NCBI GenBank assembly: GCA_009908725.1 | Contig: JAAAOT010000147.1 | Span: forward strand, 1 to 47,244 | DNA length: 47,244 nt | Source of the DNA: Bacteroidota bacterium | Lineage (GTDB): Bacteria; Bacteroidota; Rhodothermia; Rhodothermales; Salinibacteraceae | Direction of reading: 5' to 3' | Shown: positions 18,870 to 37,068 of the stretch, piece after piece | Layout: every line of letters starts with the position of its first letter | Numbering within the stretch: the stretch's first letter is position 1 | Program-made: the position numbers and the translations under genes | Notes under the pieces: model-generated | What the model saw: only the letters and a program-made list of their open reading frames with translations | Told to the model about the DNA's origin: nothing | Databases searched by the model: none

Positions 18870-20240
18870 TCAGTCCATCATTTTGCGAAGAAACGCGGGC
18901 GTGTCGTCGTCCGACGAACGGGAGCGCTGCTGGTCCCGGTTCGGACGGTCCTCGTTCAGGTCGTCCCCGCGAAGGCGCTTGATGTTGGAGCGGGACGAAC
19001 TGCCGTCACCGGAGGAGCTGCTCCGGGGAGGCGAGCTACTGCCGCCGTCGGACTCGCGATCCGCCGGCTCTCCGCCTCCGTCCTGCGCCTCCTGATTGTC
19101 TTTCTTCTTCCGGCCGCGCAACGGCGTGCTGCGGCGCTCATACGCCGGCGTGTCGAGGTGACGGAGGTTGTCCTCCCCCTTGTAGCGGTAGTTCGGGCCG
19201 TTGCCGTCGAGCGGAACCGTCCGGCGCATCCCCGAATCCTCGTCCTCCGCCTCGTCTTCCGGAGAATCGAAGCCCGTCGCGATGACAGTAACACGCAGCA
19301 GGTCGTCCATGTCGTCGTCGATCACCGTACCGAAGATGACCTCGACATTTTCTCCCGCCTCGCGCTGAATCACGCTGGTCGCCGTCGTCGCCTCGCGAAT
19401 GCCGAGGGACGAGCCGCTGGTGATGTTGACCAGCACGTTCCGGGCGCCGGCAATCGACAGGCCGTCGAGTAGCGGACTCGAGATCGCCTGTATGGCCGCC
19501 TTCTCGGCGCGGTTGTCGCCCTTCGCTTCCGCGGAGCCCATCAGCGCCTCGCCGCCGTTCTTCATGGTCGTCTTCACGTCGGCGAAGTCGAGGTTGATCA
19601 GGCCGTGGACCGTTATGAGGTCACTGATCCCGCGCGTGGCGTTGTAGAGGACTTCGTCGGCTTTCTCGAAGGCCTCGATCAGGCTGGTATTCTCATCCGC
19701 GATGTCGAGCAGGCGCTCGTTCGGGATGACGATGAGCGTGTCGACGTTCTTCCGGAGAAGCTCGATGCCCTCCTCAGCCGTCTTCTGGCGGCGGGCGCCC
19801 TCACAATCGAAGGGGCGCGTCACGATCGCCACGGTCAGGATGCCCATCTTTCGCGCAATGGATGCGACGACCGGGGCGCCGCCCGTTCCGGTCCCGCCGC
19901 CCATTCCGGCGGTGATGAAGACCATGTCGTAGCCGTCGAGGGCCTGCTCCAGTTCGTTGGAGTTTTCCTCGATAGCCTCAGCACCCACGCTGGGCCGCGC
20001 GCCGGCGCCGAGCCCCTTGGTCAGGGTCCGGCCCGCCTGGATCTTCTGCGGGGCCTGGTTTTCGGCGAGCGCCTGGGCATCGGTATTCACGGCGACAAAC
20101 TCGACGCTGCCGTGAATGCCCTGGTCGACCATGTTGTTGATGGCATTGCCTCCCCCTCCGCCAACGCCGACGACGCAGATTTTGGCTTCCTCGTTTGCGG
20201 CATCGTCAAACGAAAACCGCGAGCTAAATTCGTTTTCCAT
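18870..20240 (-). CDS. ftsZ: Cell division protein FtsZ
   Basis: CVVGVGGGGGNAINNMVDQGIHGVEF-like start, FITAGMGGGTGTGGAPVVA, C-terminal peptide DDDTPAFLRKMMD. Confidence 0.98.
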   Translation of the reverse strand: MENEFSSRFSFDDAANEEAKICVVGVGGGGGNAINNMVDQGIHGSVEFVAVNTDAQALAENQAPQKIQAGRTLTKGLGAGARPSVGAEAIEENSNELEQALDGYDMVFITAGMGGGTGTGGAPVVASIARKMGILTVAIVTRPFDCEGARRQKTAEEGIELLRKNVDTLIVIPNERLLDIADENTSLIEAFEKADEVLYNATRGISDLITVHGLINLDFADVKTTMKNGGEALMGSAEAKGDNRAEKAAIQAISSPLLDGLSIAGARNVLVNITSGSSLGIREATTATSVIQREAGENVEVIFGTVIDDDMDDLLRVTVIATGFDSPEDEAEDEDSGMRRTVPLDGNGPNYRYKGEDNLRHLDTPAYERRSTPLRGRKKKDNQEAQDGGGEPADRESDGGSSSPPRSSSSGDGSSSRSNIKRLRGDDLNEDRPNRDQQRSRSSDDDTPAFLRKMMD

Positions 20241-20464
20241 AAGTTCCCTCCAGTCTGTGTGGTTCGAAAGTCAGAGCGACCCGAAGATCCGGTCGAGGTG
20301 AGCAGCCCCGAGGTCATGCAGGATCGGGTCGTCGGGTGGTCGTGGGGTTCGTGAAGTAGTGTGTGAGGGTACGATGCTGCAGATTCCGGCAAAAGCCGCC
20401 GTGACGGTTGCGTGGAATGAATCACCGTCGTTCGGCGCACCCGGGTAGGGTCAGAGCCGCTAAA

Positions 20465-20493
20465 ATCTTATGTCGCAACGAGTTATCAGCCAA
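20465..20493 (-). promoter_or_regulatory. Putative ftsZ-proximal promoter
   Basis: On the minus strand TTGGCT, 17 nt, TAAGAT, in the 294-bp ftsA-ftsZ intergenic region. Confidence 0.35.
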
Positions 20494-20534
20494 AGAAACG
20501 GCATATCGTGGCGAATCGCAACGTACCATAGCAG

Positions 20535-21797
20535 CTACAGTTCGTCAAACCATGATTTCATCCGTGTCGCGATGCGGTTGACGAGCGTTTCTCCCGACAC
20601 GCGTTCTCCATTTCGATGCTGATCGATATCCTCGCTGAGGGTCGATCCGCCGATGACTTCCGGGCGCATGCCGTAGAGCACGAGCCCGACGCCGGTCGAG
20701 TACTTGGGATCGGACACCTCCTCGACGAGCCCGCCGGACAGCCCCATCGGGCGACCGATCCGGGCTTCCATCCCCAGCACTTCGGCGGCCAGGTCGGCCG
20801 TTCCGGGAATGAGCGCGCCGCCACCGGTGAGCACGCAGCCCACGCCGAGGTGACGCGCGTAGCCGGAGCGCTTGATTTCGATGGCCGCGATCTCCAGGAT
20901 TTCCTCCAGCCGAGGCTGAATGACCTGCGCGAGCGTGTCGCGCCCGATCGTCTTCTCGGGCCGCCCGCCGATGCCGGGAATCTCGATCTGCTCGGTTTCA
21001 TCGGCAAAGTCGACGAGTGCGGTGCCGAACTGTCGCTTCAGCTGTTCGGCCTGGTCGCGCATCACGCCCAGCCCCTTGCGAATGTCGTCCGTGACCTTGT
21101 TGCCGGCCACGGCAATGACAGCCGTGTGACGGATTGTGTTGTCTTCGAAAACGGCGATGTCGGTCGTCCCGCCGCCGATATCGATCAGCGCAACGCCCAC
21201 CTCCTTCTCGTCGTCGTGAAGGCACGAGAACGAGGAGGCAAGCGGCTCGAGCACGATGTCGGCCACTTCGAAGCCCGACTTCTCGATGCAGCGGTAGATG
21301 TTTTTCGCCGCTGAGACGAGGCCGGTGATGATGTGGACGTTTGCCTCAAGGCGGACGCCGCTCATGCCGACGGGGTCGGCCACGCCGTCCTGTCCGTCCA
21401 CGATGAACTCCTGCGGGATGACGTGCAGAATCTCGCGGTCGGCGGGCATCGCCACGTGCATGGTGTCTTCGAGGAGACGCTGCACGTCGTTCTGCGTGAT
21501 CTCGCCGGACCGAATGGTCACGACGCCCCGGCTCTGGAAGCTCTGCACGTGGTCGCCGGCAATCCCGACAATAACGCTTCGCACCTCCACGCCGGCGGCC
21601 CGCTCGGCCTCTTCGATGGCGGACCGAACGGCATTCACAGTGCGGTCGATGTTGACGACGACACCGCGGTTGAGTCCATCGGACGGGGCAACGCCCACGC
21701 CCAGGATGTTTACGCGGTCGAGTTCGTCCTCGGCAGCAACGACGGCACAGACCTTTGTCGTGCCGATGTCGACTCCTACGACGATATTTTCGTTCAT
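20535..21797 (-). CDS. ftsA: Cell division protein FtsA
   Basis: VVGVDIGTTKVCAVVA, GVALIDIGGGTTDIAVF, ...GGRPEKTIGRDTLAQVIQPRLEEI, C-terminal amphipathic RIATRMKSWFDEL. Confidence 0.97.
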   Translation of the reverse strand: MNENIVVGVDIGTTKVCAVVAAEDELDRVNILGVGVAPSDGLNRGVVVNIDRTVNAVRSAIEEAERAAGVEVRSVIVGIAGDHVQSFQSRGVVTIRSGEITQNDVQRLLEDTMHVAMPADREILHVIPQEFIVDGQDGVADPVGMSGVRLEANVHIITGLVSAAKNIYRCIEKSGFEVADIVLEPLASSFSCLHDDEKEVGVALIDIGGGTTDIAVFEDNTIRHTAVIAVAGNKVTDDIRKGLGVMRDQAEQLKRQFGTALVDFADETEQIEIPGIGGRPEKTIGRDTLAQVIQPRLEEILEIAAIEIKRSGYARHLGVGCVLTGGGALIPGTADLAAEVLGMEARIGRPMGLSGGLVEEVSDPKYSTGVGLVLYGMRPEVIGGSTLSEDIDQHRNGERVSGETLVNRIATRMKSWFDEL

Positions 21798-21983
21798 GGC
21801 GGGTGCGGGTGTCGATTCGGGGTGCTACGCAGAGCGCCGGTCGAGGCGACGAAGACCGTTGCCGGACCGAGCGGAGCGCGAGCATGTGTCAGAGAAGCCG
21901 GGCCTGTCGAAACAGGGAGCGGTTCGGAGCGAGCGGTGGAAATCTGGAGGGTAGTGAGGGTTCGTGTGAGGCCGCTATGAGCG

Positions 21984-22766
21984 TCAGCTTTCGACGGCAG
22001 CACGCCCGTCGGCGGCCTCGCGGGTCACGATCTGGTTGTCGAAGCGGAGATCCACGTATCCGACGGCCGGATTCGGCCCAGCCTGGAGCACCTGATGGTG
22101 GAAGGCCACGAGCCGTTTCAGCCGAAGACCAAACCGTTCACGACCGAGATCGGCGGTAACAGATGGATGGATGTCCGTGGGTCGAGTATACACACGAATT
22201 CGGTCGTTCGCGAATACATCAATTTCGGTAATGATGGACGCTGCCGCGTGCCCGTCGAGCGACTGCAGGAAGCCCGTTAGCCCCTCCCCGGCTATGCTCT
22301 TGAGCGGATGGTAATCGGCGGTCACGCCACGCAGGAGCGGTACGTCAAAAGCGGTGCTGTCGACGAGCGGCATCGCGTATCCGCCGGCGTCGAGGTAGTA
22401 GGCAGGTCGGTTCTCCTGGACCACGATCGCCGCCGGTGTACGCTCCGTCACGCCCAGAACGAGCGTCCGGGCGGATCGGCGCTCCCGAATGTCCACGCGA
22501 CGAACCCAGGGGTGCCGCTGCACGCGGTCGGCGATCAGGCCGAGGTTGAGGTCGTCCATGACGACGCCGGTGTCGACGCGCGCCAGCCGCCGCAGGGTAT
22601 CCGGGTGAACGTGCTGAGCGCCCTGCACCTGAACGACGGAGACCGGCACATTGGCCTGCCACTGCCAGCCGAGAAGGCCGAGCACGAACACGCCGCCCGC
22701 GACGAGAGCAATGCCCCCGAGGCGAACAGCGAGCTTGGCTATTTTGCGTGCGGTGTCCAGGTCCAT
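21984..22766 (-). CDS. ftsQ: Cell division protein FtsQ/DivIB-like
   Basis: Single N-terminal TM, POTRA-like VSVVQVQGAQHVHPDTLRRLA, RHPWVRRVDIRERRSARTLVLGVTERTPAAIV. Confidence 0.9.
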   Translation of the reverse strand: MDLDTARKIAKLAVRLGGIALVAGGVFVLGLLGWQWQANVPVSVVQVQGAQHVHPDTLRRLARVDTGVVMDDLNLGLIADRVQRHPWVRRVDIRERRSARTLVLGVTERTPAAIVVQENRPAYYLDAGGYAMPLVDSTAFDVPLLRGVTADYHPLKSIAGEGLTGFLQSLDGHAAASIITEIDVFANDRIRVYTRPTDIHPSVTADLGRERFGLRLKRLVAFHHQVLQAGPNPAVGYVDLRFDNQIVTREAADGRAAVES

Positions 22767-22779
22767 GGCGAAGGGTCGT

Positions 22780-24219
22780 TCAGGCAGATGCGTCGCTGTT
22801 CGAAAGAGCAGGTTCGAGGTCGGTCAGCCGGTCTACGAAGTCGCGGCTGTACCGCCAGATGTCGCCGGCGCCCATCATCAGCACGACGTCTCCGTCGGCG
22901 GTAATCTCCGCGAGCTCGTCGGGAAGCTGTTCCTTCTGGGGTACGTAGTGAACGCTGCGGTGACCGTAGTTCTGAGCCCGGCGGGCAATCTCTTCGCCGC
23001 TGACCCCTTCGATCGGCGCCTCGCGGGCTTTGTAGACGTCCGTCACGACGAGCACGTCAGCATTGAAGAACGCGCGGGCGAAGCCGTCCTGAAAGTCACG
23101 GGTGCGACTGTACAGGTGCGGCTGGAAAACGGCCACGATGCGCCGGTCGGAGAAGCCCTGGCTGGCGGCGTCGAGCGTGGCCTCAATTTCCGTCGGATGG
23201 TGCGCGTAGTCGTCGAGAACGACGCGCCCCGCCACATCGCCGATCTGCTGGAAACGGCGCCGGACGCCGTCGTAGGCGGCCAGTCCATTGCGGATGTGAT
23301 CGAATGGAACGTCGAGTTCGACGCCGACGGCCACGGCCGCGAGCGCATTCCGGACGTTGTGCATTCCGGGCACGTTCAACGTAACCGTCCCGAGTGCATC
23401 GCCCCGAAACTGTACGTCGAAGTGCGTCTTCAGGCCGTCGCGCCGGATGTTGATCGCGCGCACCTCCGCCTGTCGCGTCGTACCGTAGGTCAGCACTCGG
23501 CGCTCAATGCGCCCGACGATGGCCTGCACGTTGGGATCGTCGAGGCACAGGATGGCGGCTCCGAAGAAGGGGACGCTGTTCGCGTACTGGGTAAATGCGT
23601 CCTGGATGTCGTCCAGCCCGTCGTAAATGTCAAGGTGATCCTCCTCTATGTTGGTGATTACCGCGAGCGACGGTGTAAGCCTGAGGAACGTCCGGTCATA
23701 CTCGTCGGCTTCAATCACGATGATGTCTCCTTCCCCGGTGACGGCATTGGAACCGAACGCGGTCACTTTGCCACCCACGATGACCGTCGGGTCGAACCCG
23801 CCGTCCTTCGTGACGAGCCCGATCATGGAGGTCGTCGTGGTTTTCCCGTGCGTCCCCGCAACGCCGACACCGAACTTCATCCGCATCAACTCGCCCAGCA
23901 TCTCGGCGCGCGGGATCAGGGAGATGCGGCGCTGCTCGGCTTCAATGGTCTCCGGGTTGTCCGACGGGTCGATCGCCGAGGAGTACACGACGACGTCGGC
24001 ATCCCCCACCTGTTCGGCGGCATGGCCTTCGTGGACGACGGCACCGAGCTCTTCGAGGTGCCGCGTCACGTCGCTCCGGGTGAGGTCGGACCCCGACACC
24101 CGGTAGCCACGGTTGAGCAGCACTTCCGCGATCGAGCTCATGCCAATCCCACCGATGCCCACCATGTGGACCCGGCGGATCCGCCCCAGAGCCGGTTGTC
24201 TTCTGCGTTCGGTTTCCAT
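22780..24219 (-). CDS. murC: UDP-N-acetylmuramate--L-alanine ligase
   Basis: HMVGIGGIGMSSIAEVLLNRGYRVSGSDL, GVAGTHGKTTTTSM, DDYAHHPTEIEATL, FQPHLYSRTRDF. Confidence 0.97.
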   Translation of the reverse strand: METERRRQPALGRIRRVHMVGIGGIGMSSIAEVLLNRGYRVSGSDLTRSDVTRHLEELGAVVHEGHAAEQVGDADVVVYSSAIDPSDNPETIEAEQRRISLIPRAEMLGELMRMKFGVGVAGTHGKTTTTSMIGLVTKDGGFDPTVIVGGKVTAFGSNAVTGEGDIIVIEADEYDRTFLRLTPSLAVITNIEEDHLDIYDGLDDIQDAFTQYANSVPFFGAAILCLDDPNVQAIVGRIERRVLTYGTTRQAEVRAINIRRDGLKTHFDVQFRGDALGTVTLNVPGMHNVRNALAAVAVGVELDVPFDHIRNGLAAYDGVRRRFQQIGDVAGRVVLDDYAHHPTEIEATLDAASQGFSDRRIVAVFQPHLYSRTRDFQDGFARAFFNADVLVVTDVYKAREAPIEGVSGEEIARRAQNYGHRSVHYVPQKEQLPDELAEITADGDVVLMMGAGDIWRYSRDFVDRLTDLEPALSNSDASA

Positions 24220-24221
24220 CT

Positions 24222-25334
24222 TCAGGTGAGGCTTCGGTGGGTGTCGGCGAGGGCGAGGACATCGGCGGCGATGCGGTCGGCGGCTTCAGGGCGCGCCTCC
24301 CTTCGAGCAGCCTCGGCCATCTCCCGGCGGACGCCGGCGTCGCCCAGCAGGTCGCGGACAACGTGGACCAGGCGCGCCTCAAGATCCGGCTCTCGCAGGA
24401 CCCGCGCGGCCCCGACGCGCTCCATCGCCCGGGCGTTCTTCGTCTGGTGATCGGCTACTACGTTTGGTGAGGGTACGAGAACAGCCGGCGTGCCGGTCAC
24501 CATCAGTTCGCTGCACGTGATCGCACCGGAGCGGCAGAGGGCGAGGTCGGCGGCGGCGTACGCCAGATCCATCCGTTCGATGTATTTCAGCAGTCGAAGG
24601 CGCGGGTGGTCTGCGACGCGCTCGCTGATAGCGCTGTAGTAGCGCGACCCGGTCTGCCAGATCACGTGGACGTCCGGGTCCTCGAGCAGCGCGCTGAGGC
24701 TCCCTTCCAGCGCCGTGTTGAGAGCCTCGCTTCCCAGCGACCCGCCAAATACGAGAAGGACGCGAGCATCTGCCGGGATGTCCAGCGTATCTCGGGCCTC
24801 GGTCGCACCGGCGCGGAGTAGGGAAGCGCGGGTGGGGTTGCCGCTGACCGTTGCCCGCCCGGACGGCACCCAGTCTCGGGCCTCGTCGAAGGCCAGATGG
24901 ATATGCGAGGCCAACATGGACAGCAGGCGATTCGTCACGCCGGCGTAGGCGTTCTGCTCCTGAATCACGATCGGGCGACGACGCAGCCACGCAGCGAGCA
25001 GCACGGGGCCCGACACGTACCCGCCCGTGCCGACGGCGACATCCGGCTCAATCGCGCCGACGAGGCGCCAGCTCTGAATCATGCCTTTCGCCAGTTGAAC
25101 GGGAAAACTCAGGTTCTGTAGCGACAGGTCTCGCTGGAAGCCCGACACGGTGATCGGATGCAGCGCGTATCCCGCGTTCGGGACTGCCGTCGCTTCCAGG
25201 CGATCCTCCGTTCCCGCAAATACGACGCGCGCCTCCGGCCGCCGGGCCGTGATGGCGTCCGCGATCGCGATCGCAGGGTATACGTGCCCTCCGGTGCCAC
25301 CGCCGGCGATCAGTATGTGGGGAGGACGAGCCAT
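24222..25334 (-). CDS. murG: UDP-N-acetylglucosamine--N-acetylmuramyl-(pentapeptide) pyrophosphoryl-undecaprenol GlcNAc transferase
   Basis: ILIAGGGTGGHVYPAIAIADAI, QEQNAYAGVTNRLLS, GGSLGSEALN, CRSGAITCSELMVTGTPAVLVPSPNVVADHQTKNA. Confidence 0.97.
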   Translation of the reverse strand: MARPPHILIAGGGTGGHVYPAIAIADAITARRPEARVVFAGTEDRLEATAVPNAGYALHPITVSGFQRDLSLQNLSFPVQLAKGMIQSWRLVGAIEPDVAVGTGGYVSGPVLLAAWLRRRPIVIQEQNAYAGVTNRLLSMLASHIHLAFDEARDWVPSGRATVSGNPTRASLLRAGATEARDTLDIPADARVLLVFGGSLGSEALNTALEGSLSALLEDPDVHVIWQTGSRYYSAISERVADHPRLRLLKYIERMDLAYAAADLALCRSGAITCSELMVTGTPAVLVPSPNVVADHQTKNARAMERVGAARVLREPDLEARLVHVVRDLLGDAGVRREMAEAARREARPEAADRIAADVLALADTHRSLT

Positions 25335-25410
25335 GCGCGCGAGTAGGTTTAAAAGGTGGTCTTACGAGGAAAGCAAGGATGATAAAAGCCGCGGACCACG
25401 GGGGGCCGGG

Positions 25411-26604
25411 TCACACGAAGGATTCGGTCTTGCGGCGTTCGGTCGCCGGGGTTCGTTCTTTCACCTGCCGGGACACGTTCAGGATGACACCGACCATGAC
25501 GCCGTTGGCAATCATGGACGTGCCGCCGTACGACACGAAGGGCATCGGCAGACCGGTCACGGGGAGCAGCCCGCAGGCGACGCCGGCGTGGACGAAGCCG
25601 TAGAGCACGAGCAGCGTCGTGAAGCCGACGGTGAGAAACAGGCCGAGCGGGTCCGGAGCATCCCGCGCAATGCGGAGGAAGCCGCGGATGAGCAAGATGC
25701 AGAAGCCGAGGAGCAACGCGACCGCACCGAGCACGCCGTATTCCTCCGCAATGATGGCGAAAATAAAGTCGTTGTAGGGCGCCGGCAGGAAGTCACGCTG
25801 AATGCTTTTCCCCGGCCCGACGCCGGTCAGTCCTCCCATTGCGAAGGCGATGCGGGCCTGCTGCGACTGGTAGCCCTCACCCTGCGGGTTGAGGACATGC
25901 TCGGCATTCGTCGATGAGAAAATGTTCACGCCGAGGTAGCTCTCGACGCGGGCGGCTCGACTCGGGGAGTTGGCGATCATTCCCACCGCGAGCAGCGCCC
26001 CCATCATGCCGAGGGCGGCGATCTGATAGGTGCTGACGCGGCCCACGAAGCCCATCAGCATGACCGCGACGAGGAGGACGGCGGAGGTCGACAGGTCGTC
26101 CAGGCCGATCAGCAGGATCGTACCGAACGCCCAGATCAGAATAGGCAGGAACGCGCGGCCGAAGCTTTTCACATAGTCCTGCTTCTGCGCGAGCAGCACC
26201 GCGATGTAGAAGACAAGCGCCACCCGCGCAAGGTCGGACGGCTGAAATCCGAAGCCGGCAACCCGGAGCCAGCGGTCCGGCCCTTCGGTGAAGAGGCCCA
26301 CCCCTTTCACCACGAGTAGCAGCCCCAGCGCAATCACCAGGGCGACCTTGCTGTAGCGTGCGAGCGTCCGGTAGTCGATCAGGCTGACGACACCCATGAC
26401 GCCGAGGGCGAGCACAACCCGGATCACGTGCCGGATCAGGAATCGCTCGGTGTCGCCTCCGGCCTTCGTTTCCGCCAGGAACGTGATCGCGCTGTACACG
26501 GCCACGACGCCGACGGCGGACAGGGCCAGCACGACCCAGATCACGTACTTATCCGCCGACGAGCGGGCGGACAGGCGGTCCTTAAGTGTTCGAAATGCGT
26601 TCAT
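25411..26604 (-). CDS. ftsW: Lipid II polymerase/division protein FtsW (SEDS)
   Basis: Multi-TM; GEGYQSQQARIAFAMGGLTGVGPGKSIQRDFLPAPYNDFIFAIIAEEYG; TGLPMPFVSYGGTSMIANG. Confidence 0.96.
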   Translation of the reverse strand: MNAFRTLKDRLSARSSADKYVIWVVLALSAVGVVAVYSAITFLAETKAGGDTERFLIRHVIRVVLALGVMGVVSLIDYRTLARYSKVALVIALGLLLVVKGVGLFTEGPDRWLRVAGFGFQPSDLARVALVFYIAVLLAQKQDYVKSFGRAFLPILIWAFGTILLIGLDDLSTSAVLLVAVMLMGFVGRVSTYQIAALGMMGALLAVGMIANSPSRAARVESYLGVNIFSSTNAEHVLNPQGEGYQSQQARIAFAMGGLTGVGPGKSIQRDFLPAPYNDFIFAIIAEEYGVLGAVALLLGFCILLIRGFLRIARDAPDPLGLFLTVGFTTLLVLYGFVHAGVACGLLPVTGLPMPFVSYGGTSMIANGVMVGVILNVSRQVKERTPATERRKTESFV

Positions 26605-26668
26605 GACAAGCGGGGGGCAAAAAAGCGCCGGAAAGGCGACCCGAAGTATAGCTCAGGGTCCGGCCGGT

Positions 26669-28051
26669 TTACAAACGCCTCACGAGACGGCGAAAGGTGT
26701 CGCCGCGCTCTTCATAGTTTTCGTACATGTCGAAAGATGAGCACGCGGGACTGAGCAACACGACGTCTCCCGGGCGTGCGATGTCCCGGGCGTGCGCCAG
26801 GGCGTTCTCCATCGTCGTCGCCCGTTTCGCACAAGCTGCCGCCGCCCCGAGCTCCTGCATCACTTTCTCGGCACTCTCGCCGAGCGCAACGACGCCGCGA
26901 ACCCGCTCCCGCACCAGCGACGCCAGCGGTCCGTAATCATTTCCTTTGTCGCGACCGCCGGCGATCAGCACAATCGGTTCATCGAAGCTCTCGAGGGCGT
27001 ACCGGACAGCGTTCACATTTGTCGCCTTCGAGTCGTTGACGTAGCGCACGCCGTCGACCGTGGCTACGGTTTCGAGCCGGTGCGGCACACCACTGAACGT
27101 CGCCAGCCCCGCCCGAATCTGCGCGTCGGGGATGTCCATCAGCCGGGCCGATGTGGCGGCGGCGAGCGAGTTGTACAGGTTGTGCGGCCCGCGAAGCGCG
27201 AGATCGCCGACCGGCATGAGCGGCATATCGCCGTCGTCGTTGCGAAAGACGATCGTATCGCCGTCGACGAAGGTCCCGCGCTCCACCGGCCCCTCGATGC
27301 TGATCGCCACCGGGTCGAAGGCGTCCGGCTCTGCGGCCCGCGCCTGAACTGCCTCACGAATGAGGTCATCGTCCGCGTTATACACGACGGCATCCCCCGG
27401 GCCCTGTCGGGCGAAGATGCGACATTTGCTCCGCGCATAGGCGCTAAAGTCGTCGTCATACCGGTCAAGATGGTCCGGCGTGATATTCAGCAGGACGCTG
27501 ACACGGGGGCGGAAGGTATCGACGTGGTCGAGCTGGAAGCTGGATACCTCGAGCACGACGATGTCCTGCTCCCGTGCCTCGAGCACCTCGTCGGAAAAGG
27601 GATCCCCGATATTGCCGGCAACGAGCGTTGCGCGGTCATTCACCTTGCGCATCGCGGTTCGAATGACGTGGCCCGTGAGGCTGGTGGTCGTCGTTTTTCC
27701 GTTCGTGCCGGTGATCGCTATGATGGGGGCATCGCAGAACCAGGACGCCACCTCGATTTCCGAGTAGACCGGCAGTCCCGCCGCCCGGCACATCTCCACG
27801 ACGGCGGCATCGGACGGGACACCGGGACTCACAACGACCAGGTCCGCCCGGGCGGCGCGCTCGGTGTGCCCGCCAAACTCATACTCCACCCCGATCGCAT
27901 CCAGCGTATCGCGGATGCCGTCCTTCGGCGGTCCGTGCTCCGTCACAAACACGGACGCCCCGGCCCCGGCGAGCAGACGCGCGACGGCCCGGCCGCTGCG
28001 CGCACCGCCGACGACGGTCACGGACTGATCAGAAAGGGTGGAGGGATTCAT
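26669..28051 (-). CDS. murD: UDP-N-acetylmuramoylalanine--D-glutamate ligase
   Basis: VVGGARSGRAVARLL, ITGTNGKTTTTSLTGH, NITPDHLDRY, VPHRLETV, NDSKATNVNA; start trimmed to MNPSTLSDQSVTVVGG. Confidence 0.96.
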   Translation of the reverse strand: MNPSTLSDQSVTVVGGARSGRAVARLLAGAGASVFVTEHGPPKDGIRDTLDAIGVEYEFGGHTERAARADLVVVSPGVPSDAAVVEMCRAAGLPVYSEIEVASWFCDAPIIAITGTNGKTTTTSLTGHVIRTAMRKVNDRATLVAGNIGDPFSDEVLEAREQDIVVLEVSSFQLDHVDTFRPRVSVLLNITPDHLDRYDDDFSAYARSKCRIFARQGPGDAVVYNADDDLIREAVQARAAEPDAFDPVAISIEGPVERGTFVDGDTIVFRNDDGDMPLMPVGDLALRGPHNLYNSLAAATSARLMDIPDAQIRAGLATFSGVPHRLETVATVDGVRYVNDSKATNVNAVRYALESFDEPIVLIAGGRDKGNDYGPLASLVRERVRGVVALGESAEKVMQELGAAAACAKRATTMENALAHARDIARPGDVVLLSPACSSFDMYENYEERGDTFRRLVRRL

Positions 28052-28101
28052 CACGAAAGAGCCGCGGGGAAACCTGTGCGGTGGAATGGGAAGAGTCTGC
28101 G

Positions 28102-29259
28102 TCAGCGAATGCGGAGCGTGAGGAGGGCGGCGATCACCGTCAGCGCCGTGACGATCCAGAAGCGGGTGACGATTTTCGCCTCGTGCGTGCCGCGCGCCTC
28201 GAAGTGATGGTGCAGCGGCGCCATCCGAAAGAGTCGTTTCCCCGTTCCGGTCCGATGCCGGGTGTACTTGAAGTAGCTCGTCTGTAGAATGACCGAGAGT
28301 GCCTCGGCGAAGTACACGATGCCAAGGAGCGGAAGGAGCAATTCCTTTCGCACCATGAGCGTGACAGCCCCGACGGCAGCGCCGAGTGCCAGCGCGCCGG
28401 TGTCGCCCATGAAGACCGTTGCCGGATACCCGTTGTACCAGAGAAAGCCGAAACAGGCCGCCACCATGGCCGCCCCGAAGATCGTCAGCTCGCCGATCCC
28501 CGGCAGGTACATGACGTCGAGAAAGGTCGCCAGGTTGACGTTCCCCGAGATGTAGACGAGCGCGACCAGCCCGAGCGAAACGAAGGCCGTCACTCCGGTG
28601 GTCAAGCCGTCGAGTCCGTCGGTCAGGTTGACCGCATTGGACACCGCCGTCATGATGAAAACCACGACGGGCAGGTAGACCATCCAACCGAGATCGATGC
28701 CGTTCGTCCATGCCTCGAAGAAGTAGTAGTCGATCACGCGGTCCTTCAGGAAAGGAACGTACGTGAGCGTGTTGAACTCGGAAAACGAGGGGTGGAAATA
28801 GAGGACGCTCCCGACCACGAGTCCGATGCCGATCTGTCCGGCGACCTTGTATCGCGGTGCGAGTCCATCCTTTTGCTTCTTAACCGTTTTGATGTAATCG
28901 TCGGCAAACCCGACCACGCCCATCCAGGCGGTAGCCAGCATCGCCAGCCACACGTAGGTCTTGGCAATGTCGCCCCAGAGGAGCGTCGCCCCGAGGATGG
29001 AGAGCAGAATAATGATGCCGCCCATCGTCGGGGTGCCGGCCTTATGTGCGTGGCTCACCACGCCGGCGTCGTCGCCTTTGCGTATCTGTTCACCGAGCTG
29101 CTGCCGTGCCAGCCACCGGATAATGCTGCGCCCCGCGAAGAGGGCAATCACCAGCGCGGTCATGGCCGCCAGCGCCGCGCGGACCGTGATAAACTGGATG
29201 ACCTGAAAGCCGGGCGGCTGGTAGACCTGCTCCAGGTAACTGATGAGGTAGTAGAACAT
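28102..29259 (-). CDS. mraY: Phospho-N-acetylmuramoyl-pentapeptide-transferase
   Basis: AGTPTMGGIIILLSI, GFADDYIK, NAVNLTDGLDGLTTG, FMGDTGALALG, RMAPLHHHFEARG. Confidence 0.98.
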   Translation of the reverse strand: MFYYLISYLEQVYQPPGFQVIQFITVRAALAAMTALVIALFAGRSIIRWLARQQLGEQIRKGDDAGVVSHAHKAGTPTMGGIIILLSILGATLLWGDIAKTYVWLAMLATAWMGVVGFADDYIKTVKKQKDGLAPRYKVAGQIGIGLVVGSVLYFHPSFSEFNTLTYVPFLKDRVIDYYFFEAWTNGIDLGWMVYLPVVVFIMTAVSNAVNLTDGLDGLTTGVTAFVSLGLVALVYISGNVNLATFLDVMYLPGIGELTIFGAAMVAACFGFLWYNGYPATVFMGDTGALALGAAVGAVTLMVRKELLLPLLGIVYFAEALSVILQTSYFKYTRHRTGTGKRLFRMAPLHHHFEARGTHEAKIVTRFWIVTALTVIAALLTLRIR

Positions 29260-29355
29260 GTGGGGGGTGAAGAGGTCGCGGCGGAACCGGTCGCTCGGGG
29301 CATCGGATGAAGAAAACGGGCGAAGGGGGCGGAGCCGATCGCAGCGGATCGAAGA

Positions 29356-30957
29356 TTATGCGGCGGACGGGGAGGTGCGCTGCTGGAAGTACTGGTGCGC
29401 ACGCTTTCGGTCGTCGAAGGCGCGTCGCCTGGTGCCCACCACCTGGTACGTTTCGTGGCCTTTTCCGGCGATCAGAACCACATCGCCCGGCGCGGCATGG
29501 TCGGCAGCGAATCGGATGGCTTCGTCTCGGTCCACGATCCACTCGGCCTCACTGGGCCGGCTCATCCCGCGTCGGATGTCGTTCAGAATGGCCTCCGGCT
29601 CTTCGGTGCGCGGATTGTCGCTCGTCACGATGACACGATCCGCGAATGTCTCGGCCAGGCTGCCCATAACACGGCGTTTGGACCGGTCGCGGTCTCCGCC
29701 GCAACCGAACACGCACCAGAGCGTGGCGCCGTCGTCCGTGGCCTCTCGCACCGACTGCATAATGTTCTCCAGAGCGTCGGGCGTGTGGGCGTAGTCGACG
29801 ACGACCGTGGTGCCATCATCAAAGGTTCGCTGGTCAAACCGGCCGGGCACGGGCGTCGCCTCGCGCAGGACCTGGAGCACGTCGTCCGGGTCGTGGCCGA
29901 GAGCTCGAAGCGCGGTGAAGGCGGCGGCCAGGTTGTACGCGTTGAACCGGCCCGCCAGGCGGAAGGTGTGAACCGCCGTGTCATCTTCGGCTCCGTCGGC
30001 CGTCCGAAATCGGAGGCGGAGGCCGCTCGTTCGGCTTTCCACTACGTCGAACCGGACGTCTGCGCCCGCATCGGTTCCGTAGGTCTGGATGCTCGCACGG
30101 GTGGACGCTCCAACGGCCGCCGCGGCATCGTCATCCGCGTTCATCACGGCGGTCGCGCCGGGGGCGAGCCCGTCGAATAGCTTCTTCTTCGCGGCGCGGT
30201 AATTAGCCAGCGTGCCGTGGTAATCGAGGTGTTCGCTGGTCAGATTGGTGAAAATGGCGACGTCGTACTCGATCGCGTGAACGCGCTGCTGGTCCAGGGC
30301 GTGCGATGACGCTTCCATCGCACAGGCCTTGCATCCATCGTCGACCATGCGGCGAAGCGTGCGCTGGAGCTCCAGTGCGCCCGGGGTGGTCAGGGCGGCA
30401 TTGGTCGCAACGGCTCCCGTCCGGACCTCGATCGTCGAGATCAATCCGGGCGTCTCACCAAGCGCTTCGAGCGCGTGGTGGACCAGGTAAGAAACGGTCG
30501 TCTTCCCGTTCGTCCCGGTCACACCGACCATGCGAAGCGATCGCGAGGGGTGGCCGTAGAACGCGGCCGCGAGCTCGGCAACAGCGGTTCGCCCGTCCGT
30601 CACCTCGGCAAACACGACCTCCGGATACCGCTCGTCCGCCTGCTCCGGAACGGTTTCACACACAACGATGCCGGCGCCGTTCGCGATGGCCTGATCGATG
30701 AAACGGTGCCCGTCGACGGACACACCCTTCACCGCCACGAAGCAACAGGTCGTGCCGTCGGCGGCGTCCACGCGGATCATGCGGCTGTCGTCCGACACCT
30801 GCCCGACGAGCAGGTCCGTGCCCGTGACCTCTCGTGCCGCGTGAACCGAGCGCAGCACGCCCGCGTCCTCCAGCGCCGTACGCAGCGCGGACCACGACAC
30901 GGACGTAGCATCCGTGTTCGACCTGCCGGACTTGGAAGAGGAAAGATCGGGAGTCAT
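29356..30957 (-). CDS. murE: UDP-N-acetylmuramoyl-L-alanyl-D-glutamate ligase (MurE)
   Basis: VGVTGTNGKTTVSYLVHHALEALG, MEASSHALDQQRV, VDYAHTPDALENIMQ, VFGCGGDRDRSKR, TSDNPRTEEP. Confidence 0.97.
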   Translation of the reverse strand: MTPDLSSSKSGRSNTDATSVSWSALRTALEDAGVLRSVHAAREVTGTDLLVGQVSDDSRMIRVDAADGTTCCFVAVKGVSVDGHRFIDQAIANGAGIVVCETVPEQADERYPEVVFAEVTDGRTAVAELAAAFYGHPSRSLRMVGVTGTNGKTTVSYLVHHALEALGETPGLISTIEVRTGAVATNAALTTPGALELQRTLRRMVDDGCKACAMEASSHALDQQRVHAIEYDVAIFTNLTSEHLDYHGTLANYRAAKKKLFDGLAPGATAVMNADDDAAAAVGASTRASIQTYGTDAGADVRFDVVESRTSGLRLRFRTADGAEDDTAVHTFRLAGRFNAYNLAAAFTALRALGHDPDDVLQVLREATPVPGRFDQRTFDDGTTVVVDYAHTPDALENIMQSVREATDDGATLWCVFGCGGDRDRSKRRVMGSLAETFADRVIVTSDNPRTEEPEAILNDIRRGMSRPSEAEWIVDRDEAIRFAADHAAPGDVVLIAGKGHETYQVVGTRRRAFDDRKRAHQYFQQRTSPSAA

Positions 30958-30983: not shown

Positions 30984-32957
30984 TTATTCGCCCGTGATCA
31001 TCGCCGTGGAGGGCAGTGGTTGCCCGGCGGATGGCGACTGATCCTGAACGGTGCCGCGACCGAAGAGGCGGACGTCGATGCCGCGCTGGTGCAGCCAGTG
31101 GACGGCATCGCGCGTTGTGAGGCCCGTGAGATCAGGCATCGCGTCGGCCCCGGCGTCTGCGAGGCGCGCCTGAACGGCCGGCGGCGAAGCGGCAGTCGAG
31201 GCCGTGCGGGTTGCCGCGCCAGGCGCAGGGAGCGTGGCCCCGATGTCCGCCCGGGCCACGATGTGATCGACGACCTCCGGGAAGGTGCCCGCCCAGCGGC
31301 GAGCGATGTTCTGGAAAATGGGGGCGGCAACGGCGCCGCCGTACATGCTGGTCTCCGGCTCGCCCACGATCACGAGAACGGCGACCTGAGGATCATTCGC
31401 AGGGAAATACCCGACGAAGGATGCGCGCGCCTGTTCACCGGAATATTTTCCGCCGCTCACCTTCAGCGCCGTGCCCGTTTTCCCCGCAATATCAAGGCCA
31501 CGAATCTGCGCCGATGTGGCGGTGCCGGTCTGGACCGTTTTCTCAAAAGCCGGGCGCAGAGCTTCCGCGGTCGACGGCTGCAGCGCACGGCGAATCGAGT
31601 CGGGTTGCTGGCTCCACAGAAGGTCTCCGGTGATGCTCCGGCGCTCCTTCACGATATGCGGCTGGACAAGCAGGCCGCCGTTCGCCAGCGCCGAATACGC
31701 AGCCAGTAGCTGAATGGGCGTGACCGCCACCTCGTACCCGATGCTCATGGACGTGAGCGAGGTCCGGCTCCAGCTCGCCGGTTTCTTCAGCGTGCCGCTC
31801 ACCTCGCCCGGCAAATCGACCCACGTCGGCTGGCCGAAGCCCAGATTCCGGGCATACTGGTAGAAGATGCCTTCATCGATTCGCGTCGCGGTCTTTGCCA
31901 TGCCGACGTTGCTCGACTTCGACAGCACTTCCGCGAAAGAGATCGTGCCGTAGGCTTTCACATCCTTCATCGTGTAGCCGTGGAAGACGGCCCATCCGTC
32001 GCCCGTCTCTACGGAGTCGCCCAGCGAGACGATATCCTGCTCGACGGCCGCTGCCGCGCCGACCAGCTTGAACGTCGACCCCGGCTCGAACTGGTCGGTG
32101 ATCGACCGATTTCGACGACGGTCCGACGACGCCCGGCCCGGGTGATTGGGGTCATACGTCGGCACGTTTGCCATCGCGAGAATCGCGCCCGTCTTCGGGT
32201 CCATGGCAATGGCCGTCCCCCACCGGGCACCGCTCTCTCGAACGCCGCGGGCCAGCTCGTCCTCCAGGGCCGCCTGCCGTACGAGGTCGATCGTGAGCAC
32301 CACGTTCTGCCCGTGCTCCGGCTTCACCACGGTGCCACCGACAAAGGCCTTGATCCGGCCGCGCCGATCGCGCTTCACGGCGTGCCATCCCGGCTCCCCG
32401 GTCAGGTAGTCGTCGTACTGCAGCTCCACGCCGGACCGCCCGGTCCCGTCGGTGTCGATGTGACCGAGCACGTGGGCGGCGGTCGTCCCGTAGTTGTAGC
32501 GGCGGGCAAACCGCGGCGACAGAATCAGACCGGGAACGTCCCAGCTCTCAACCGTCTCACGCTGTGTCTCATCCAGGCCGCGGAACAGCATCACATACTG
32601 CGGGCTGTACCGCTCGGCCACGGTGGTCCGCAGGCGGGCTTCCGACATCCCGGTGAGGGCGGCGAACCGCTCGTAGAACATGCCGCTCTTCGCCTCGAAC
32701 CCATCGATCGTGGGGTCGAGCGCGACGTCGTACCGGGCGGTGTTGATGGCGAGTGCCCGACCGGCCCGGTCCAGGATGCTCCCGCGCATGGCGGGAATCT
32801 CGACGGTGGACCGCGCCTGGTTCTGGCCCTGAGCCTTCAGCTCGGCGCCCTCCGTCAGCATGATCCACCCCATCTGCGCCAACACAAACAGCGGCACGAT
32901 GCTGAGCAGCGTCAGCACCATGTACATCCGGGTGAGTATTTGATTTTTCGGCTTCAC
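30984..32957 (-). CDS. ftsI: FtsI/PBP2B-like transpeptidase with C-terminal PASTA domain
   Basis: RGSILDRAGRALAINT, FEPGSTFKL, SKSSNVGM, AGKTGTALK, C-terminal PASTA-like MPDLTGLTTRDAVHWLHQRGIDVRLFGRGTVQDQSPSAGQPL. Confidence 0.96.
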   Translation of the reverse strand: MKPKNQILTRMYMVLTLLSIVPLFVLAQMGWIMLTEGAELKAQGQNQARSTVEIPAMRGSILDRAGRALAINTARYDVALDPTIDGFEAKSGMFYERFAALTGMSEARLRTTVAERYSPQYVMLFRGLDETQRETVESWDVPGLILSPRFARRYNYGTTAAHVLGHIDTDGTGRSGVELQYDDYLTGEPGWHAVKRDRRGRIKAFVGGTVVKPEHGQNVVLTIDLVRQAALEDELARGVRESGARWGTAIAMDPKTGAILAMANVPTYDPNHPGRASSDRRRNRSITDQFEPGSTFKLVGAAAAVEQDIVSLGDSVETGDGWAVFHGYTMKDVKAYGTISFAEVLSKSSNVGMAKTATRIDEGIFYQYARNLGFGQPTWVDLPGEVSGTLKKPASWSRTSLTSMSIGYEVAVTPIQLLAAYSALANGGLLVQPHIVKERRSITGDLLWSQQPDSIRRALQPSTAEALRPAFEKTVQTGTATSAQIRGLDIAGKTGTALKVSGGKYSGEQARASFVGYFPANDPQVAVLVIVGEPETSMYGGAVAAPIFQNIARRWAGTFPEVVDHIVARADIGATLPAPGAATRTASTAASPPAVQARLADAGADAMPDLTGLTTRDAVHWLHQRGIDVRLFGRGTVQDQSPSAGQPLPSTAMITGE

Positions 32958-32993
32958 GGGACGGAGAACGAGGTTGCAGTAATCGGTCGTGCG

Positions 32994-33446
32994 TTACTCG
33001 GGAACGACCACGGTCCGGCCGGTCGGCACGGCTTCGCGGAGACCGAGCTCGCGGGCCCGGTCGTAAATGACGGATGGACCCGTCGCGTGGTCGAACTCCC
33101 CTTTCAGTCGGTTGTGCTTCAGGTGCAGCTTGTGATTCATCTGTCGCGCCTCCTGCACATCCATGAGGAGCTGCTGCGTGGCATGGACGTGACCGACGTA
33201 GAGCGTGAACAGCGCCGCAATCAGTAGCAGAACCAGCCCGAATCGGACGGTAGACACGTTTTCGAGAAACGAACCGTCATCGTCCCGCTCGTCTCGTCGC
33301 CGGTTTGTCTTCGGCTCGAGGTCCGACCAGGACGGCAGGGCGGTCCCGTGGCGCTGGTACCGCGTCGAATCGGTGTCGCGGCTCCCGCGGTCACGGCGGG
33401 ACGCGTCGTTCCGGGACGGTCGGCTTTTGTTCAGAATGCGGTTCAT
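32994..33446 (-). CDS. ftsL: FtsL/DivIC-like bitopic division protein
   Basis: Basic N-terminal tail, single TM (VRFGLVLLLIAALFTLYVGHV), short coiled-coil; position between rsmH and ftsI. Confidence 0.75.
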   Translation of the reverse strand: MNRILNKSRPSRNDASRRDRGSRDTDSTRYQRHGTALPSWSDLEPKTNRRRDERDDDGSFLENVSTVRFGLVLLLIAALFTLYVGHVHATQQLLMDVQEARQMNHKLHLKHNRLKGEFDHATGPSVIYDRARELGLREAVPTGRTVVVPE

Positions 33447-33511
33447 CGGAATCAGAGGGACGACGCCCTCGCTCTACATCGGGTCGGCATCAAAACGGCT
33501 GCAGGCAGGCA

Positions 33512-33997
33512 TCATGACGGCTGGCGCGCACGAACGGCGGCGTTGGAGCGGCGGCGCGCGGCCGGTTTGCAGGCAAGCATACGCGTCAGCCGGGCCTGCA
33601 GGCTGTTCGGGTCCAGTGGCTTGGCAACGCATCCGTCGAATGCAGCCCGCCGGTCGTCGGGGACGCGGCGTCCGTCGTCAGTGTCGTCGGACATGGCGAG
33701 GACCGGGACGTCCCGGTAGCCGTCGTCTGCGCCCAGGTGATCGAGAAGAGCATCTCGATCTGCATTCGGCAGGTCGAGGCTCACGAGCACGGCGTCATAG
33801 ACAGCGTCGGAGGCCAGCCGGATCGCGTCGGCGGCCGCGGTCGCGACGTCCACCTCCCCGTCGTGGCGCAGGGCGTACTGCACCTGCAGCCGGACCTTGG
33901 GGTCGGCATCGACAACGAGAAGTACGGGCTGCCCGTCCGGCGCGGACCGGCGAGCGCGGCGCACACGGCGCCAGAGAATGTCGGGGGAATCGGTCAT
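33512..33997 (-). CDS. Receiver-like (pseudo-receiver) protein lacking the phosphoacceptor Asp
   Basis: LLVVDADPKVRLQVQYAL..., YDAVLVSLDLPNADRDALLDHL, VPVLAMSDD, DGCVAKPLDPNSLQARLTRML aligns with CheY-like receivers; the D57 position is Ser and D13 is Ala. Confidence 0.82.
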   Translation of the reverse strand: MTDSPDILWRRVRRARRSAPDGQPVLLVVDADPKVRLQVQYALRHDGEVDVATAAADAIRLASDAVYDAVLVSLDLPNADRDALLDHLGADDGYRDVPVLAMSDDTDDGRRVPDDRRAAFDGCVAKPLDPNSLQARLTRMLACKPAARRRSNAAVRARQPS

Positions 33998-34045
33998 GGC
34001 TGTTAAAATCGGAATACGGTAGAACGAGGCACGACGGGGACAACG

Positions 34046-35098
34046 TCAGCGCGTCGGGACCGGCGTGCCGGCATCGTCCGGGGTGCGCTCGGCGACTCGG
34101 AGGCGTGCGCTTCGGGCCCGGGGGTTGGACTCCACCTCCGCCTCACCGGCTTCGATGGCCGATCGCGGCGTCTCCTCAAACGGCGCGATCAAGGTGCCGT
34201 AAATGTCGCGAATGGGCTTACCCTCGAAGTTGCCGTAACGCAGAAAGCGCTTGACGCGCCGGTCCTCGAGGCTGTGGTAACTGATGACAGCAATGCGGCC
34301 GCCCTCGCGGATCACGTCCACGCTCTGTTCGAGCACGTCTTCAAGCACGTCGAGCTCGGCGTTGACCGCAATTCGGAGGCCCTGGAAGACGCGCGCAAGG
34401 CTCTTCACCTCGTCCCGTTCCGGCACCGCCGAACGGACGGCGTCGGCAAGGTCATGGGTGGTTTCGAGCGGACGCGCGTCCACGATGGCGCGGGCGATCG
34501 GTCGGGACCGGCGTTCGTCGCCGTAGTGGAAAATCGCATCCGCGATGTCGCGTTGATCCCAGTGGTTTACAATCTGGTGGGCGGTGAGACCGCCGCGCGG
34601 GTCCATTCGCATGTCGAGCGGTCCCTCCCGCTGGAAACTGAAGCCCCGTTCGGGCTCGTCGATCTGATGAGACGAGACGCCCAGATCCAGCAGCAGGCCG
34701 TCCACGGTGTCGATTCCGGCGTCGTCCAGGAGCGACCGGAGCCGGCCGAAGTTGCCCTGCAGGGCCCGGAATCGCCCGGCATCGATCTCCTCCTTGAGCC
34801 GGTCACAGGCAACGGCAAGGGCGTCCGCGTCCTGGTCGATGCCGATCACCTCGGCCTTCGGCGCGAGCGCATCCAGCATCGCCTTCGCGTGGCCACCGCC
34901 ACCGAGGGTACCGTCCACGTAGCAGCCGGCCGCGTCCGTGATCAGGCGGTCCGTGACCTCGTGTGAAAGAACAGGCGCGTGGTACTCCGTTGCGTAGCGC
35001 AGCGGATCAGCGTCCGGGCCGGCGTCGGAGCCGGAGGAAGAAGCGGGGGCGTCGGAAGCCGTCATCGGTCGGTGCATCGGGGGAAGCGGTACAGGCAA
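34046..35098 (-). CDS. rsmH: 16S rRNA (cytosine(1402)-N(4))-methyltransferase
   Basis: [82 protein letters not shown]. Confidence 0.98.
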
Positions 35099-35101
35099 GC
35101 G

Positions 35102-35542
35102 CTACATGTTCATGACGCGCTCGGCCAGGGTTTCGTAGTCGTCAGGTTGCTGGTCCATGTATTCATCGAACCGGTCCGGATCCCAGATCTCGATGTGGTC
35201 GAAGGCACCGATGATCAGCGCCCGACCGTCGACATCGGCAAAATCCAGCAGTGGCCGGGATATCGTGACGCGTCCCTGTCCGTCGAGCGTGGCCTCATCG
35301 GCCCACATCATGATCGCCCGTACAAAGGTTCGGGCATCGGGGTTGAACATGTTCAGCGCCCCGATCGCCTCTTCGATCTCGGCCCACTGATCCAGCGGGT
35401 AGAGGAAAATGCATTCCTCGAAGCCCCGCGTGATCGTGAATGTGTTCTGGGCCTCCGGATTCAGCACCCCCCGCATTTTCGCAGGAATGGACACCCGTCC
35501 CTTACTGTCGACGGAATATTCAGCCTGACCCTTAAAAACCAT
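35102..35542 (-). CDS. mraZ: Transcriptional regulator MraZ
   Basis: MVFKGQAEYSVDSKGRVSIPAKMRGVL and second repeat EATLDGQGRVTISRPLLDFADV; start trimmed to MVFKGQ. Confidence 0.96.
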   Translation of the reverse strand: MVFKGQAEYSVDSKGRVSIPAKMRGVLNPEAQNTFTITRGFEECIFLYPLDQWAEIEEAIGALNMFNPDARTFVRAIMMWADEATLDGQGRVTISRPLLDFADVDGRALIIGAFDHIEIWDPDRFDEYMDQQPDDYETLAERVMNM

Positions 35543-35670
35543 GATGGCAGCCCCCGAACTACGGAGTGGGCACGACGCCTCGAACGCGCATCCCGGCGCC
35601 GCGAGCACGGGTCGGATGGCGGAGAGGTCGGAATGAACGCGCTGTCGACGTGAGGCCGGATGGGAGCACT

Positions 35671-35695
35671 CCCCACTTTTCCCCACGCATCTCCA
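35671..35695 (-). promoter_or_regulatory. Candidate MraZ box array (three repeats, 10-bp period)
   Basis: Minus strand TGGAG-ATGCG-TGGGG-AAAAG-TGGGG, directly downstream of a putative -10. Confidence 0.65.
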
Positions 35696-35696
35696 C

Positions 35697-35724
35697 AAAG
35701 TACGGGGATGGCCCCCAATGTCAA
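35697..35724 (-). promoter_or_regulatory. Putative mraZ (dcw cluster) promoter
   Basis: Minus strand TTGACA, 16 nt, TACTTT, about 155 bp upstream of the mraZ start. Confidence 0.55.
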
Positions 35725-35745
35725 GGTCTCCCCGCGAGAAACCCC

Positions 35746-35767
35746 GATTGTTTGCGCCAAAACAATC
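35746..35767. repeat. Perfect inverted repeat upstream of the putative mraZ promoter
   Basis: GATTGTTT-GCGCCA-AAACAATC, 8-bp arms and 6-nt spacer, 21 bp upstream of the -35. Confidence 0.6.
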
Positions 35768-36120
35768 ATGTCCGATCGATGTGCACATACCCTATTTACG
35801 GGCGGATCGCCGTCGATCGGAGCGGCGATCTGCGTCCATTTAAGATAAACGCGCATCGGGAGACGACGTCGCCTCATTTCGGCGGCCGCATTATTTTGCT
35901 CCACACATATCTCCCGCTTCGGACGGGCGATATAACGGCGTCCGAACGAACTCGCGCATCGGCTCGATGACGAATTTTTTCTTCACCTGGCGGCACCTGT
36001 CGCCGCCCAGCGATCCCAGATCTGCTCATGCAGAACCAAGGTGAGATGCAGTGGGCGGGGTGGGACGACGACCAGCTGTAGGCCGAGGGGCGAGACGAAT
36101 CGGAGGAGCCGTCCGGAGAT

Positions 36121-37068
36121 TCAGAAAAGAATCCGGTTTTGAGACGGACTCCGGATCGTCGAAACCGTGTGGATCGGGATCCGCGTCGCCTCGTCTTCCT
36201 TCTGGTGGACGACGACGTCCGTCCCGTCAATGTGAAATCCGTCTCCACGAACGGTCGGCTGGTCGCGGCGATACACGATCACGGCATTATCGGCTTCCAG
36301 GAGAAAGGCTTCCGGCCCCACCCGCTGCCCCGTTGCTGACTCTACCATAAGCGACCGCATCCCGTAGCGGACGGCGTCCTCGTTCGACGAGATGCGCTCG
36401 TAATTCTTGGACAACGCCGACCGCAGGCCGACCCAGATCGGCCGCGCCCCCGCGGTATTCTCACCCTGCGCCGGCCCCATGTCCCACACCATAGCAACCG
36501 TCATTGGAGACCGTCGATTGAAAAGGTCAATCTGAAGCACGGGGATCGAGACGCCGATAGAGAGACCGGGGGCTACGACCGGGCCAATGAACGGAGGCGA
36601 CATCCCGTCATCGTCGATCTCCATCTTGATGTTCGGATCGACAACCAGAACGTATTGCGCATCTGCCTCGGCTGCCAAGGCGCGAAGCACGTCCACCCTC
36701 ACCCGCTGCGGCGAATCCTCATCGACATCACCGTCCTCGGGAACGGGTTCGTACAGCGAATCCGCAGATATGCCGGTGTCCCGGTGCGGAGCATTCGCAT
36801 ACACGGAATAGGTTTGTCCGTAGCCATCCAGCGACTGCGTTGCCTCGGCCAGCACGTGCTTATAATATCGCGCAAGGTCGAGATCCGAGGCATCCGCAAA
36901 CCGCGGGCTCGGATGTACGGGGACGACGAGCCAGGACGCATCGTAGACGTCGGCGGACAACGGCGGCGCCGTCGGCTCTGTGGACTTACACCCCGTCATC
37001 ACCAAGAGGAAGAGAACCAGAATAAACGCTCCCTTCCGGAAGAGACGACGCACGAACGAATCAGTCAT
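36121..37068 (-). CDS. Lipoprotein of unknown function
   Basis: MTDSFVRRLFRKGAFILVLFLLVMTGCKS signal peptide and lipobox; no family recognised in the remainder. Confidence 0.75.
   Translation of the reverse strand: MTDSFVRRLFRKGAFILVLFLLVMTGCKSTEPTAPPLSADVYDASWLVVPVHPSPRFADASDLDLARYYKHVLAEATQSLDGYGQTYSVYANAPHRDTGISADSLYEPVPEDGDVDEDSPQRVRVDVLRALAAEADAQYVLVVDPNIKMEIDDDGMSPPFIGPVVAPGLSIGVSIPVLQIDLFNRRSPMTVAMVWDMGPAQGENTAGARPIWVGLRSALSKNYERISSNEDAVRYGMRSLMVESATGQRVGPEAFLLEADNAVIVYRRDQPTVRGDGFHIDGTDVVVHQKEDEATRIPIHTVSTIRSPSQNRILF

Follow-up and report, generated by a model that had tools for sequence, protein, structure and literature searches.

In part of the Salinibacteraceae, a family of salt-loving bacteria, the dcw cell-division cluster harbors a lineage-restricted gene for a single-domain receiver, which has become a pseudo-receiver in one genus. 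The gene is real and its setting is new, and the function put forward for it is a proposal. A search of the open-licence literature returned no dcw-resident receiver or response regulator and only regulators acting in trans, in line with a first-pass annotation, made from the sequence alone, that knew of no described protein of this kind.

A receiver-family gene inside the dcw cluster

The window, which is the whole stretch of 47,244 nucleotides analyzed here, corresponds to one entire contig of a genome available as a draft of 4.05 Mb in 394 contigs, with a completeness of 84%. Its RsmH shares 67% identity with that of the nearest named relative, Salinibacter altiplanensis, and the genome is placed in the Salinibacteraceae, order Rhodothermales. 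The dcw cluster is complete and is borne by the minus strand in the order mraZ, rsmH, receiver ORF, ftsL, ftsI, murE, mraY, murD, ftsW, murG, murC, ftsQ, ftsA, and ftsZ, the genes downstream of ftsL being identified by reading their translations alone. The receiver ORF (33512–33997, minus strand) starts with an ATG, encodes 161 amino acids and is co-directional with the dcw genes. It is separated by 48 bp from the end of rsmH, or mraW (34046–35098; profile match of 289 bits to TIGR00006), and by 65 bp from the start of the ftsL-like gene (32994–33446), coordinates that agree with those first annotated. The product of the ftsL-like gene is recognized by its position and by weak but consistent matches to FtsL-like and DivIC profiles. 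Further downstream are found ftsI (30984–32957), which encodes a PBP3-like protein with a C-terminal PASTA-like region and was anchored by tblastn, and the genes from murE to ftsZ (18870–30957). The common strand and the two spacers bear on the transcription of the receiver ORF, which may be joint with that of rsmH and ftsL; no promoter-like site was found within 32900–36200 and no terminator-like site in either of the spacers flanking the ORF.

Two observations concern the neighboring genes. The mraZ ORF as listed (35102–35788; 124 bits to TIGR00242) carries about 80 surplus N-terminal residues: profile matches begin at residue 85, and the true start is therefore probably near 35540 (MVFKGQAEYSVDSKGR). 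The FtsL of the window, like that of every Rhodothermales locus examined, carries at its N terminus a cytoplasmic tail of about 70 amino acids with a conserved RHGTALPxWxDLEPxxNRR-like motif, independently of the presence of the receiver gene.

The assignment of the 161-residue product to CheY-like receivers holds by several approaches. Residues 27–137 (33587–33919) match PF00072 at 37.0 bits (curated cut-off of 30.2; E 4e-9), and the AlphaFold2 model, with a pLDDT of 83 overall and above 90 across most of residues 21–140, displays a (beta-alpha)5 fold of five alternating strands and helices with a short alpha4. Foldseek searches with this model returned receivers only among the top 50 matches, the best being 3nhm, 4hnr, and 7c1j, with TM-scores by target of 0.82–0.87. 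No output domain was detected in the 161 residues, for which Pfam gave receiver-like matches only. The N-terminal extension (residues 1–23; 33929–33997), which bears an ILW..IR.A....P motif, is modeled with low confidence because the alignment used for the prediction consisted of the window protein and 44 distant receivers from viral contigs.

Examination of the active site confirms each of the substitutions initially read from the sequence. The position of the phosphorylated Asp (D57) is occupied by Ser73 (AGC codon, 33779–33781), the acid pair is broken, with Asp30 (D12) kept and the second acid (DD2, D13) replaced by Ala31 (GCC, 33905–33907), and the aromatic residue of the K-3 coupling position (Y106) is Cys123 (TGC, 33629–33631). 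Retained are Ser103 at the T87 site and the conserved Lys (K109), Lys126 (AAG, 33620–33622), while the Gly at D+8 is also gone (Arg81). With both D57 and DD2 missing, the protein fits the definition of an Asp-less receiver and resembles in this respect the Asp-less and pseudo-receivers already described, among which Ser is a common replacement (PMC4395418, PMC12632262). Since Ser makes up 15% of phospho-Asp replacements (PMC4395418) and pseudo-receivers and Asp-less receivers represent about 6% and 4% of all receivers, respectively, the substitution itself is not rare. Within the window genome, 37 receiver domains were counted, and the Asp-less ones are the receiver ORF and one weak match (24.6 bits), a second receiver-like domain (G000:C163:5018-5350, locus L251) with a Glu at the phospho-Asp position.

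Distribution among relatives and loss of the phosphorylation site

When 115 genomes of the order were searched at the protein level, clear homologs appeared only in a genome of the same genus (G055, 55% identity) and in three genomes of two other genera (G054, G068, and G072), the window genome being G000. The other matches, with E values of 5e-13 or weaker, resemble ordinary receivers, and none is comparable to the five, so that this search gave no relocated copy in genomes lacking the gene. All four homologs lie between rsmH and ftsL in the same direction, which brings the arrangement to five genomes and three genera. The comparison was extended to the rsmH regions of 80 genomes of the order and to 80 loci from many phyla. 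Both rsmH and ftsI are present in 152 of the loci, of which only the window and L121, L123, L139, and L140 have an intervening receiver, and none was found at this place in the remaining loci, many phyla included. A profile built on the five proteins scores them at 221–286 bits and other receivers at 115 bits at most in 396 genomes of the phylum, a sample to which G054 and G072 do not belong; the same profile found no relatives in viral contigs, which counts against a viral or mobile origin.

The conservation of the position, which the first-pass annotation had proposed to check, thus holds for these five genomes and fails for the rest of the family: of 24 genomes with a readable rsmH-ftsL junction, 19 lack the gene although they are syntenic, and no remnant is visible at their empty junctions. 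As the gene is gone without trace in 19 relatives, it is dispensable and cannot be essential for division in this family. An additional genome, G053, was not counted because both of its relevant contigs end at this junction, one at the end of rsmH (G053:C308:1-1045) and the other just before the start of ftsL (G053:C115:4365-4808), as if the junction had broken the assembly.

These comparisons also bear on the nature of the ORF. A chance ORF is ruled out by four other genomes, which carry the same gene at this junction, and by codon substitutions that reject neutrality. That the locus is an assembly artefact or a contaminant contig of a metagenome-like assembly could be suspected from the fragmented and incomplete draft, but is scarcely credible, and is largely refuted by the independent congener G055, which is 99% complete, shares both the gene order and the AGC codon, and groups with the window in the flanking genes.

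Phylogenetic analysis of 95 receivers groups the five dcw-encoded proteins in one clade (support 98/97), nested among hybrid-kinase receivers and small stand-alone ones from the same phylum. The N-terminal extension is common to the five and absent from the nearest stand-alone paralogs. The branching order of the receivers, (G054,(g1,g7)), where g1 is the window genus and g7 the genus containing Salinibacter, is that of the tree built on rsmH, ftsI, and ftsL. As the position is identical in all five, these data are most simply accounted for by a single insertion followed by several losses. When presence and absence alone are counted, three gains require fewer changes, so that the segment may instead have passed between relatives.

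The phosphorylation site differs between genera. The proteins of G054, G068, and G072 possess the Asp (GAT or GAC codon), the Thr, and the Lys, the second acid being already missing in G068, whereas both members of the window genus have a Ser encoded by AGC, a codon at least two base changes away from GAY. Lost in the window genome alone are the K-3 aromatic residue, which is Phe or Tyr in the four orthologs, the Thr at T87, replaced by Ser, and the Gly at D+8, replaced by Arg. The PF00072 scores fall in the same direction as these losses, from 72.9 bits in G072 through 70.4 in G068, 64.4 in G054, and 59.6 in G055 to 37.0 in the window. Because Ser is found in both genomes of the window genus and Asp in the three from two other genera, the ancestor at the dcw locus was most likely a single-domain receiver that could be phosphorylated; the pseudo-receiver state would be a later, recent derivation at the genus level. 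The expectation that Ser would be conserved is thereby borne out in the only other congener sampled, with Asp at this position in the three more distant orthologs. Likewise, the pseudo-receiver assignment stands for the window genus, where the site is lost, and cannot be generalized, as relatives outside this genus show the two features that had been named as counting against it, namely an Asp at this position or the absence of the ORF from a syntenic locus.

Selection and a possible decay of the gene

Between the two congeners, the receiver has a dN of 0.34, compared with 0.06–0.09 for rsmH, ftsL, and ftsI, and between G068 and G072 a dN of 0.15, compared with the same range for these three genes. 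An omega of 1 is rejected for both pairs (2 delta lnL of 109 and 128), the value for G000 and G055 being only indicative since the receiver dS is saturated. On a fixed tree, the receiver branches measure 0.58 for the window genome and 0.27 for its congener, compared with 0.09 and 0.08 for rsmH, which corresponds to a receiver evolving 3–6 times faster than rsmH in this genus. A Tajima test with G054 as outgroup counts 19 unique changes in the window copy and 5 in that of G055.

The strongest rival to a kinase-binding function, because the gene is so often missing and the window copy changes fastest, is that of an accessory gene heading for loss, for which kinase input has become unimportant, the Asp and other sites have drifted, and the protein is made but does little. 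We regard this as a serious possibility, although one on the less probable side. It would accord with the lack of any remnant in the 19 family genomes, with the acceleration of the window copy relative to its congener and to the flanking genes, and with the stepwise loss of the D+8 Gly and of the K-3 aromatic residue. Against it, both copies remain intact over 159–161 amino acids despite saturated synonymous sites, neutrality is strongly rejected, and the Lys, the hydrophobic core, and the N-terminal half are retained.

The changes are furthermore unevenly distributed along the protein. When segments are grouped post hoc, after inspection of the data, 58 of 77 positions are conserved between the congeners in the N-terminal, beta1-alpha1, beta3, and beta5-alpha5 segments, compared with 24 of 58 in beta2-alpha2, alpha3, and beta4-alpha4 (p 8e-5). 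The Asp-bearing pair shows no such split (63/77 and 50/58). This is the pattern that would be expected if the phosphorylation switch were no longer needed and one face of the protein still bound a partner.

A putative phosphorylation-independent binder and its precedents

We consider the prospects about even that the window protein acts by binding, independently of phosphorylation, with a histidine kinase as its most plausible target. In this scenario, a receiver gene of the hybrid-kinase or stand-alone type would have been inserted a single time between rsmH and ftsL of the dcw cluster, within the Salinibacteraceae, and its product would initially have been a normal phosphorylatable single-domain receiver. 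The window genus would then have lost the phospho-Asp by two base changes (GAY to AGC) together with the second metal-binding acid, and the window genome, in addition, the Tyr/Phe coupling residue, the D+8 Gly, and, in the alpha3-beta4-alpha4 switch region, the conserved shape. Since purifying selection persists, the protein most likely works without phosphorylation, as a binder whose dose may be set by dcw transcription.

Contacts of receivers with the DHp domains of kinases involve mainly alpha1 and the beta5-alpha5 loop. The face that appears to be retained (N-terminal extension, beta1-alpha1, and beta5-alpha5) would include this docking surface, an argument based on conservation at the level of segments and on two genomes for the Ser form. 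As the most specific mechanism, it is therefore proposed that the protein may bind and restrain a histidine kinase or a phosphorelay, thereby tying the pathway to growth and division. The mode of binding and the partner are both inferred, and three findings count against this reading: no kinase gene adjoins the receiver ORF, no measured gene of the cluster changes faster than the window copy, as a weakening function predicts, and 19 relatives manage without the gene.

Precedents exist in Osp of Rhodobacter (Cereibacter) sphaeroides, which acts on CckA, and in FixT, two single-domain receivers that inhibit histidine kinases in the unphosphorylated state (PMC9430884). Like them, the window protein is a stand-alone receiver fold with no output domain and a partial acid pocket, unphosphorylatable as judged by its residues. 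However, it has the Lys but no Asp, whereas Osp has an Asp but no Lys; moreover, Osp and FixT are not encoded in dcw clusters, and for the window protein kinase binding is a prediction. These precedents, combined with the conserved docking face, lead us to favor a kinase-restraining binder over both a decaying gene and a direct divisome adaptor. According to the latter hypothesis, which we hold to be unlikely, the receiver would bind the product of a neighboring gene, such as RsmH or the extended FtsL tail in the cytoplasm, its ancestral form being controlled by phosphorylation. The stability of the rsmH-ftsL position across three genera and the clade-specific extension would suit such an adaptor, but the RHGTALP.W.DLEP motif of the FtsL tail is found just as well in genomes that lack the receiver, which hence does not explain it, and operon position is no proof of physical contact.

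A replacement of Asp phosphorylation by Ser/Thr kinase control at Ser73 is very improbable. Ser is among the commonest phospho-Asp replacements, such a regulation has been proposed (PMC4395418), and Ser73 is common to both congeners; nevertheless, the same article calls the idea speculative and knows of no case at a former Asp site, and the metal-binding acid pair is broken in the window protein.

Other systems share some of these features. Many characterized pseudo-receivers are joined to an output domain, DNA-binding or other, whereas the window protein is a single domain encoded in dcw and, unlike pseudo-receivers in general, has a private N-terminal extension and Asp-bearing orthologs at the same locus. 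These orthologs have the architecture of DivK, MrrA, and similar phosphorylatable single-domain regulators, and the solved structures that the clade profile matches include that of DivK; there is, however, no orthology with the dcw receivers, and the window protein does not have the residues for Asp phosphorylation. As here, two-component signaling is tied to dcw genes by CenKR (PMC9275681), NtrYX (PMC7240162), and GluR (PMC8281045), but these are DNA-binding transcription factors encoded elsewhere, whereas the window protein resides in the cluster and is devoid of a DNA-binding domain.

That division or wall synthesis is coupled to another signal, as first suggested, is inferred from the position of the gene. 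A broader proposal, which we put forward quite tentatively and which is more probably wrong in some part than right, is that in part of the Salinibacteraceae the dcw receiver links a phosphorelay to the division and wall operon, and that one genus turned it into a constitutive, dose-controlled pseudo-receiver restraining a kinase or the divisome. If true, it would offer, at a fixed locus, a natural series of the states before and after a receiver lost its phosphorylation. According to a recent review, the mechanisms by which bacterial pseudo-receivers are activated or inactivated are still a mystery (PMC12632262), and how such proteins arise and act is an open question that this set of orthologs addresses. 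With Asp- and Ser-bearing forms at one chromosomal place, the loss of phosphorylation is testable by swapping them.

In other families of the Rhodothermales, a different small ORF of 75–102 amino acids occupies the same rsmH-ftsL junction, with the pattern ILxWLASLGYxxxGRTxxExxxMFLREAxQWExxP. In rsmH-oriented coordinates, it is found at 2072–2380 in L150 (G020), 2137–2364 in L151 (G019), 2072–2371 in L154 (G024), and 2439–2705 in L165 (G036), and the two members tested have no Pfam match. Extra genes seem to have been taken up repeatedly at this junction, which would make it the one particular place where the highly conserved dcw cluster of this order admits additional regulators.
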